From assembly GCA_943788815.1 (NCBI GenBank), contig CALSRS010000001.1:124001-188000 (forward strand): DNA of 64,000 nt, written 5' to 3'. Below are positions 47,852-50,503 of this stretch, piece by piece. Both the position numbers and the translations under genes were made by a program. Origin of the DNA: an uncultured Gammaproteobacteria bacterium. GTDB taxonomy: Bacteria; Pseudomonadota; Gammaproteobacteria; Eutrophobiales; Eutrophobiaceae. Position 1 is the stretch's first letter; each line of letters opens with the position of its first letter. Below the pieces are notes generated by a model. That model saw only the letters and a list, made by a program, of their open reading frames with translations, was not told where the DNA came from and ran no database searches.

Positions 47852-50503
47852 ATGAAGAGAATGTTAATCAATGCAACTCAACCAGAAGAGTTGCGAGTAG
47901 CCCTGGTAGATGGGCAACGTCTATACGACCTCGATATTGAATCAACCAATCGAGAACAAAAAAAATCTAATATATACAAATGTCGCATAGTTAGGATCGA
48001 GCAAAGCCTTGAGGCTACGTTTGTAGACTATGGCGCTGAGCGACATGGTTTCCTACCTTTTAAAGAAATAGCACATAGCCTGTTTGATAAAGATTCCAGT
48101 AACGGGAATGCCCGAGTAAATATTAAGGATGTAATCGAAGTTGGCCAGGAATTTATAATCCAGGTTGAAAAAGAGGAGCGCGGGAATAAAGGTGCAGCTT
48201 TAACAACCTTTGTTAGCCTTGCTGGTAGATATCTTGTACTGATGCCTAATAATCCAAGGGCGGGTGGTGTATCCAGGCAAATAGAGGGCAGTGACAGGGC
48301 AGAAGCAAGAGAAGCCTTAAGTTCTCTGGAAGTCCCTGAAGGTATGGGATTTATACTACGTACAGCTGGCGTAGGAAAAAGCTCAGAAGAAATACAATGG
48401 GATCTGGATTATCTACTTAGCCTTTGGGAAGCAATCACAAAATCATCTGGAGAGCGCGGCGCACCATTTTTAATTTATCAAGAAAGCGATGTAGTCATAC
48501 GTGCAATTCGTGATTATCTCCGAAATGATATTGCTGAAATCTGGATTGATGATCCTGAAGTATATAAACGCGCTGAGACCTTCATGCAACAGGTCATGCC
48601 GCACAATATTAATAAGCTGAAACTCTATAAAGAAGTTGACCCCTTATTTAATCGCTATCAGATAGAAGGGCAAATTGAAGGCGCGTTCTCACGTGAAGTT
48701 AATTTAATATCAGGAGGCTCATTAAGTATCGACCATACTGAAGCATTGATCTCTATCGACATTAATTCAGCCCGCGCCACCTCCGGAGAAGATATAGAGG
48801 AAACCGCGTTCAATACCAATCTGGAGTCTGCTGATGAGATAGCCAGGCAATTGCGACTTCGTGATCTTGGCGGCTTAATTGTCATTGATTTTATCGACAT
48901 GATGAATAACAGACACCAAAGAGAGGTTGAATCCAGATTAAAAGAAGCTCTAAAGATTGATCGTGCCAGAGTACAAATCGGCAGAATTTCACGGTTTGGC
49001 CTTCTAGAGATGTCTAGGCAACGCCTCAGACCATCATTGGGTGAATCCAGTCACCTGCCCTGTCCCAGGTGCAGTGGACAAGGTTCCATACGTAGTGTCG
49101 AATCGATTGCATTGTCAGTTTTACGAATTATTGAAGAAGAAGCTATTAAGGAAATGACGGGAAAAGTCGTCGCAAAATTGCCTGTTGAGACAGCAACATT
49201 TCTACTAAATGAAAAACGACAAGTGATATCTGAAATTGAAGAACGAGTTGATGTGCAGGTAGTCATCATTCCCAACCCTGATTTGGAGACACCTCATTAC
49301 CAGGTCCAAAGAATTCGTCTGTCCGATACAGAATATAACGTGAATAAAAAAGCCAGCTATCTACTTAAAGACGAAGATAAAGTAGAGGATGCTGCTGAAA
49401 TCATTACTGACAGGACCCCAAGACGAGAAGAGCCAGCCATAAAGCAGATACAGCATAATACTCCCGTACCCAACAAACAAAATACAGGCTTGTTTGCCTC
49501 CATAGGCAAATTTTTCTCTGGCTTATTTAGTAGTTCTGACACTGGCAAAGAAACTCAACAAAACCAAAGAGATAATAATCAAAAACACCAATCTCAAGCT
49601 AATTCTAATAATCGCAGGCGTTCATCCGGCAGCAATGACCGTAACCAAAAAAATGATAATAATCCAAATCGCTCTCGACGAGGACCACGAAAACCGGGTG
49701 GCGGGCAAAAAAATCGCCAGCAGGGCCAACAACGAGCCAGCGGAAACAAACCCAGAAACACATCGAAGGATCAAGGCAATCGTTCACAACGAAATCAAAA
49801 TAATCCGGACAAAAACAATAACCGTCCTGAAGAATCTCAGGACAAGAGCACACCCCCAAATAACAACAGAAATGATAACCGACGACAAAGACAGCGCCAG
49901 GATAATAATTCTGCGCAACGATCTGAAACCAAGGATAGCGTGACTAATGAGGCTGCAGGCAATCTGAATAACGCTAACGAAAATCAGTCGCCACAAAAAT
50001 CACAAGAAAACAGAAGCGAAACTCAAAACACTAACAAGAATCCTGTACAGCGTACTGAAAATAAGGAAAACGTAAAAAACGAGATTTCAGGAAATATTAA
50101 TAACTTGAACGAAAATCAGTCGCAACAAAAACCACAAGAAAATAGAAACGCAATTCAGAACACTAACAATAATCCTGCGCAGCGTACTGAATCTAAGGAA
50201 AACGTGAAAAACGAGACTTCAGGCAATATTAATAACTCGAACGAAAATCAGTCGCGACAAAAACCACGAGAAAATAGAACTGAAACTCATAGTACTAACA
50301 ACAATCCTGCGCAGCATACTGAAACAAATAAAAGTATGACGAATGAATCAACAGGTAGCATAAATAATGTGAATGAGAAACCAGCAGCCTCTACGCAAAC
50401 ACCTGAACATAAAAATGCACCAACTGAAGCCAGAAATTCTAATGCAACAGATACAAGCGCGTCTTCAACTGAAGGGAAACCAAAAAACGACACAACAATT
50501 TAA
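47852..50503 (+). CDS. rne: Ribonuclease E
   Basis: Endoribonuclease that initiates mRNA decay and matures rRNA and tRNA. The 883 residues start [21 protein letters not shown]. The catalytic half carries the S1 domain (about 35-120), the Mg-binding D303 ([10 protein letters not shown]) and D346 ([10 protein letters not shown]), and the zinc link C404/C407 (CPRCSGQG), exactly at E. coli numbers. A membrane-targeting amphipathic helix is likely at 544-562 ([19 protein letters not shown]). An Arg-rich stretch follows at about 590-650. The tail beyond about 565 is Asn/Gln/Lys-rich and disordered and ends in tandem 44-residue repeats. Its stop overlaps the convergent prfC stop. Confidence 0.97.
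49979..50374 (+). repeat. Three tandem 132-bp repeats in the rne coding tail
   Basis: Units begin at 49979, 50111 and 50243, each opening gaaaatcagtcg, and encode 44-residue repeats that start ENQSxQKxxEN and end GNINNxN or SINNVN. A decayed partial unit of about 75 bp precedes them (49904-49978). Units are in frame, and the third is more diverged towards its end. Confidence 0.9.

Follow-up and report, generated by a model that had tools for sequence, protein, structure and literature searches.

In-frame tandem 132-bp repeats in the C-terminal tail of a gammaproteobacterial RNase E

An RNase E gene (rne) was found to carry, in the part that encodes its non-catalytic tail, three in-frame copies of a 132-bp unit followed by a decayed partial copy. 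The encoded array has zero net charge, its DNA was detected in none of the other genomes searched, and its copies are separated by smaller synonymous distances than those that separate the gene from its nearest sampled relative. The array very probably represents a lineage-specific, in-frame tandem duplication in a tolerant linker of the RNase E C-terminal scaffold. At least two rounds of in-frame copying of a 132-bp piece would have taken place, probably through replication slippage or unequal recombination, after which the copies diverged. The product of these events would be a flexible linker, presumably disordered in the cell, between the Arg-rich part of the tail and the C-terminus, whose length is tolerated or weakly selected and whose fixation may have been near-neutral. 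This is an event of a known kind, an ordinary lineage-specific instance of a process already described for RNase E tails. Below, the window denotes the whole 64-kb stretch of DNA that was analysed, and its features of interest are collected in Table 1.

Table 1. Features of rne and of its encoded tail, in window coordinates
Feature	Position	Strand	Description
rne, RNase E	47852..50503	+	open reading frame, 883 aa
Zn-link motif CPxCxGxG	49061..49084	+	residues 404-411; pattern occurs once, at residue 404
Candidate membrane-targeting amphipathic stretch	49484..49537	+	residues 545-562; most hydrophobic 18-mer of the tail
Arg-rich, positively charged segment	49544..49903	+	residues 565-684; 29 K+R vs 11 D+E
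Repeat copy 0	49904..50035	+	44 codons
Repeat copy 1	50036..50167	+	44 codons
Repeat copy 2	50168..50299	+	44 codons; 86% identical to copy 1
Decayed partial copy 3	50300..50383	+	56/84 nt identical to copy 2; next 48 nt: 13 identical

The gene and its repeat array

The gene is an ordinary gammaproteobacterial rne. Its product contains S1 (2.9e-06), RNase_E_G (2.5e-99) and small Thio-like (RNase_E_G_Thio, 2.5e-33) domains, all three above the Pfam cut-offs, and scores 524 bits against the TIGR00757 subfamily model (cut-off 325.95), which bears out the original prediction's naming of the gene. The score against the NCBIfam RNase E equivalog PRK10811 is 863.2 bits, below the cut-off of 908; this match spans model positions 1-687 of 1068, with the catalytic part aligned and the unmatched remainder corresponding to the variable tail. 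Against the RNase G equivalog the product reaches 341.9 (cut-off 594), and it is distinct from the separately encoded RNase G. The latter is probably the second, shorter rne homologue of the same genome (open frame 523, G000:C1:108097-109629), as judged from its length and divergence.

Scanning the entire window with TRF at a minimum score of 50 returned a single array, at 49907-50324, with a period of 132, 3.2 copies, 82% matches, 0% indels and a score of 528. An independent repeat finder placed the copies from 49904 on, at spacings of 132 and 132 bp. Codon 685 of the rne frame starts at position 49904, so that the unit is exactly 44 codons long, and the array (49904-50383) sits in the non-catalytic tail, as had been proposed. 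DNA and protein identities are 76.5/61% between copies 0 and 1, 80.3/64% between copies 0 and 2, and 86.4/73% between copies 1 and 2; the agreement of copy 3 with copy 2 over the final 48 nt is at about chance level. The best 132-nt in-frame self-match of the tail is 0.886, against a maximum of 0.545 over 200 codon shuffles. The three in-frame copies and the decayed one are thereby confirmed by two repeat finders and by shuffling. The unit had also been described as rich in Asn, Gln and Lys. Asn is indeed abundant, the three copies containing 35 N and 14 Q among their 132 residues, but 17 basic residues are balanced by 17 acidic ones, and the copies are not net basic. The array has a net charge of 0.0, no aromatic residue and no charge block.

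Tandem arrays are a common site of assembly errors, and the array could in principle be an assembly artefact, or else an inserted mobile or palindromic element; the probability of either is close to negligible. The full copies mismatch pairwise at 18-31 of 132 positions, so that reads can tell them apart, and the contig is 2.18 Mb long. An artefact is unlikely given copies that are 76-86% identical. A mobile or palindromic insertion was rejected for the lack of inverted repeats of length at least 12 in 49850-50503 and of a second genomic site, the array DNA occurring once in its own genome. No Rfam match at gathering scores, and hence no RNA element by this measure, was found in the 64-kb window.

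At its 3′ end (50500-50503), rne overlaps by 4 bp, at the stop codons, with a convergent minus-strand frame of 519 aa, which we take to be prfC-like. Of the 26 loci compared, 8 have a minus-strand frame with the same start sequence after rne, and the 4-bp overlap is also present in L032 and L035. A terminator-like hairpin (49845-49822, minus strand; 10 pairs followed by a T-rich stretch) lies inside rne in antisense orientation, some 655 nt past the convergent gene's stop. Six terminator-like sites occur in the region where 3.2 are expected, so the hairpin may be due to chance; if it is real, the convergent transcript would cross the repeat array in antisense.

Distribution and age of the array

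Among 58 genomes, sampled at one per species, a DNA search for the array was positive in this one only, the reach of the search being limited by the fast divergence of tails. The nearest species sampled, L003, has an RNase E identical to that of isolate SFB_South_Co_18 (L032), and its catalytic part is 89% identical to the window's. No comparable array was found in it: over 30 residues it matches itself at 12 positions at best, as many as the highest of 20 shuffles, and the window's RNase E reaches 25, at lag 44, against a shuffle maximum of 13. Of the other genus members, L004 carries a separate short array (15 bp x 3.6, TRF score 80; self-match 16/30 vs shuffle maximum 11), the self-match of L006 is barely above shuffles (12 vs 11), and that of L005, like that of L003, is not above them. 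Conservation relative to the nearest species drops along the protein, from 450/500 identical positions in the catalytic residues 1-500 to 58/120 (9 gapped) in the Arg-rich segment and 41/153 (30 gapped) in the array segment.

Synonymous divergence between copies is 0.62 (copies 0-1), 0.44 (0-2) and 0.23 (1-2), compared with 2.28, near saturation, between the catalytic domains of the window's gene and its nearest relative. This places the array after that split: barring gene conversion, the duplications are most likely younger than the divergence from the nearest species sampled, with copies 1 and 2 forming the youngest pair. If the copies have undergone gene conversion, the array could be older than these distances suggest. 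Accordingly, one may propose that the array is old and fixed, that its copies have been kept similar by gene conversion and that the relatives lost it, which is highly improbable. Such conversion can mask age, and the tail of the sister species is weakly similar to the repeat unit, with a score of 63 against a shuffle mean of 55. However, 27 of 300 shuffles reach this score, several independent losses would be required, and no DNA match exists in the 57 other genomes, within the reach of a search over fast-diverging tails. Nor is there a trace of the unit in the other family tails scored (11 of 28 relatives in all, every one within shuffles), the remaining ten scores being reached by 23 to 207 of 300 shuffles.

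The relatives thus do not share the same repeat count at high divergence, the pattern by which an old, fixed feature had been expected to reveal itself: the nearest species is without the array, and 1/58 genomes is positive. The expansion had further been called recent. It is recent in having arisen, by dS, since the nearest species sampled branched off; it is not fresh, in that 14-24% of positions differ between copies and no exact run at lag 132, between neighbouring copies, exceeds 17 bp. With exact runs this short, copy-number change is expected to be slow now. Between copies, dN/dS is about 0.36-0.57 rather than 1, and by one-sided Fisher tests synonymous changes are in excess in two of the three copy comparisons (p = 0.014 and 0.046; p = 0.23 in the third), these p values being nominal, from rounded counts and overlapping pairs. 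Together, these figures indicate some constraint on the residues of the copies.

The wider occurrence of tail arrays was surveyed in 99 distinct rne genes including the window's own, 91 of them with a stop codon in the locus. They derive from 110 loci (L002-L111), of which L030 is unreadable from its start, L074 encodes fewer than 600 aa and nine were removed as duplicates; the readable loci among L002-L031 are the 29 family genes. For these, 58 genomes were searched for rne, 57 matched, and loci were taken from 30, this one included. TRF scores of at least 100 are reached by 15/99 tails, this one included, and by 0/99 catalytic parts, and scores of at least 200 by 8/99 tails; in ten rounds of codon shuffling, 0-1 of 99 tails reached 100 and none 200. 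The period is divisible by 3 in 95 of 96 tail TRF rows (99 genes, overlapping rows counted), as expected if only in-frame changes survive. Strong arrays (score at least 200), with quite different units and periods of 9 to 81 bp, are present in the tails of L046, L051, L066, L088, L090, L096 and L109. Some score higher than the present one, namely 81 bp x 5.2 (L046), 57 bp x 6.3 (L051) and 36 bp x 9.6 (L066).

The expansion was originally regarded as unusual. This does not hold, since arrays scoring at least 100 occur in 15/99 rne tails and tandem repeats are already documented as a general property of such tails in the available part of PMC4435900. Some findings count against a lineage-specific duplication in a tolerant linker: the dN/dS of 0.36-0.57, the period of 132, longer than that of any other array in the 99 genes, and the rarity of such arrays among family genes. 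Only this gene of the 29 has an array scoring at least 100, so arrays are less frequent within the family than across the wider set.

Composition of the tail and possible roles of the repeats

From residue 531 on, the tail comprises 353 residues, a length surpassed in only one of the other 28 family genes (the median of all 29 is 274); without two 44-residue copies the tail would measure 265. The array therefore lengthens the tail, as predicted. A linker matching the family consensus ExPAVKQxxPxxPVP follows the catalytic part and the Zn-link. The hydrophobic moment of the candidate amphipathic stretch is reached by 20 of 1000 shuffles of that stretch, and the family consensus carries KGLISRLFGSLFG in the same part. 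Past this stretch come the Arg-rich segment, the array and a 46-residue end that contains 13 Ser/Thr. The Arg-rich segment has a net charge of +0.15 per residue; it resembles AR1 in position and composition, and is probably RNA-binding. In 29/29 family genes, this one included, net charge is more positive in the proximal than in the distal half of the tail.

The whole tail contains 4 aromatic residues in 353, a composition that fits disorder. An AlphaFold model built on 29 aligned sequences shows residues 494-667 and 669-883 without secondary structure at pLDDT below 50, and no helix at residues 545-562. Much of the catalytic domain is also below 50, and the model, poor throughout (mean pLDDT 45.4), was set aside as structural evidence. 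Searches at E up to 1 detected no sequence relation of the tail to solved structures.

A simple criterion for prion-like segments is a count of 30 Q+N within 80 residues. The tail passes this count, with 35 Q+N in one 80-residue window. A prion-like reading was nevertheless rejected, as 12 other tails of the 99 pass as well and Asn tracks base composition. Across the 99 genes, the Asn content of the tail correlates with the GC3 of the catalytic part at a Spearman coefficient of -0.79 (Gln at only -0.20), so that Asn-richness largely reflects the base composition of an AT-rich genome in a tail of this kind. The GC3 of this rne is 0.35, and its N+Q fraction, 0.32, is the highest of the 99, with L024 close behind.

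It may also be asked whether the repeats serve multivalent docking or condensation, through a short motif in each 44-residue unit that would bind a partner or drive RNase E clustering, with copy number under selection. This is unlikely, even though the mild purifying constraint on the copies and the Q/N-richness of the tail would suit it, and a precedent exists in Pseudomonas, where REER repeats contribute to RNA binding and foci according to the available part of PMC11964227. However, pattern searches of the tail found no RE[ED]R, no NDPR (a PNPase-binding motif in that study) and no [IV]NP. The array has neither net charge nor aromatic residues to offer, the similarity of the unit to 11 family tails stays within shuffles, and the Q+N count is reached by 13/99 tails, Asn following GC3. 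On sequence grounds, little beyond the mild constraint would favour a role in condensates or partner binding. PNPase is encoded in the genome, which does not discriminate between these readings.

A separate observation concerns the end of the tail. In L007, L010-L014, L017, L018, L021, L024, L026, L038 and L055, RNase E carries a short conserved motif of approximately [DENS][IV]T[QER][IV]NP[NR] at a distance of 13-66 residues from its C-terminus, with L007 fitting loosely only. In its strict form it occurs in 10/29 family tails, against a mean of 0.004 and a maximum of 1 in 500 shuffles, and in 2/70 others. Its place in the distal tail is about that of NDPR in other loci, which makes it a candidate partner-binding site. 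The motif is absent from the window's RNase E. Conceivably, the array consists of newly evolved, selected docking sites for a putative degradosome partner that replace this [IV]TxINP[NR]-like motif, which is very improbable.

Comparison with described RNase E tails

A lineage-specific duplication in a tolerant linker leaves the picture of the degradosome unchanged. It provides a clear, datable case of RNase E tail growth, in which the copies are old enough to differ yet still recognisable, and it fits the published idea of repeats feeding the evolution of tail motifs. No paper on rne repeat number between strains was found among the matches listed, as judged by titles and abstract openings.

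The closest parallel is the survey of gammaproteobacterial RNase E by Ait-Bara, Carpousis and Quentin (PMC4435900), whose available part names disorder, composition bias and tandem repeats as conserved features of the tails. It proposes a model of tail turnover across the class, in which repeat expansion is balanced by deletion and serves as a source of new motifs. The present array lies in the same gene and the same part of the protein, and likewise consists of in-frame tandem repeats in a compositionally biased tail, described there as disordered. The units differ: the repeats named in that part of the survey are of the REE and AEVP types, and here the unit is a 44-residue Asn-rich sequence.

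In Pseudomonas, the number of REER repeats in RNase E varies across species, and a large duplicated sequence occupies residues 635-667 and 682-714, as reported in the accessible portion of a 2025 study (PMC11964227). A long duplication within the tail is thus common to both systems. Unlike the REER repeats, Arg/Glu in composition and contributing to RNA binding, the array described here is Asn-rich, and its tail lacks RE[ED]R; with zero net charge and no aromatics, it also contrasts with the arginine-bearing segments that are linked to foci in Pseudomonas. In Caulobacter, the C-terminal IDR of RNase E forms BR-bodies, and phase separation is ascribed, in the available part of PMC10412687, to charge blocks rich in arginine. 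The RNase E tail acts as a scaffold, disordered in Caulobacter, in both cases, but the array contains none of the arginine-rich charge blocks found there.
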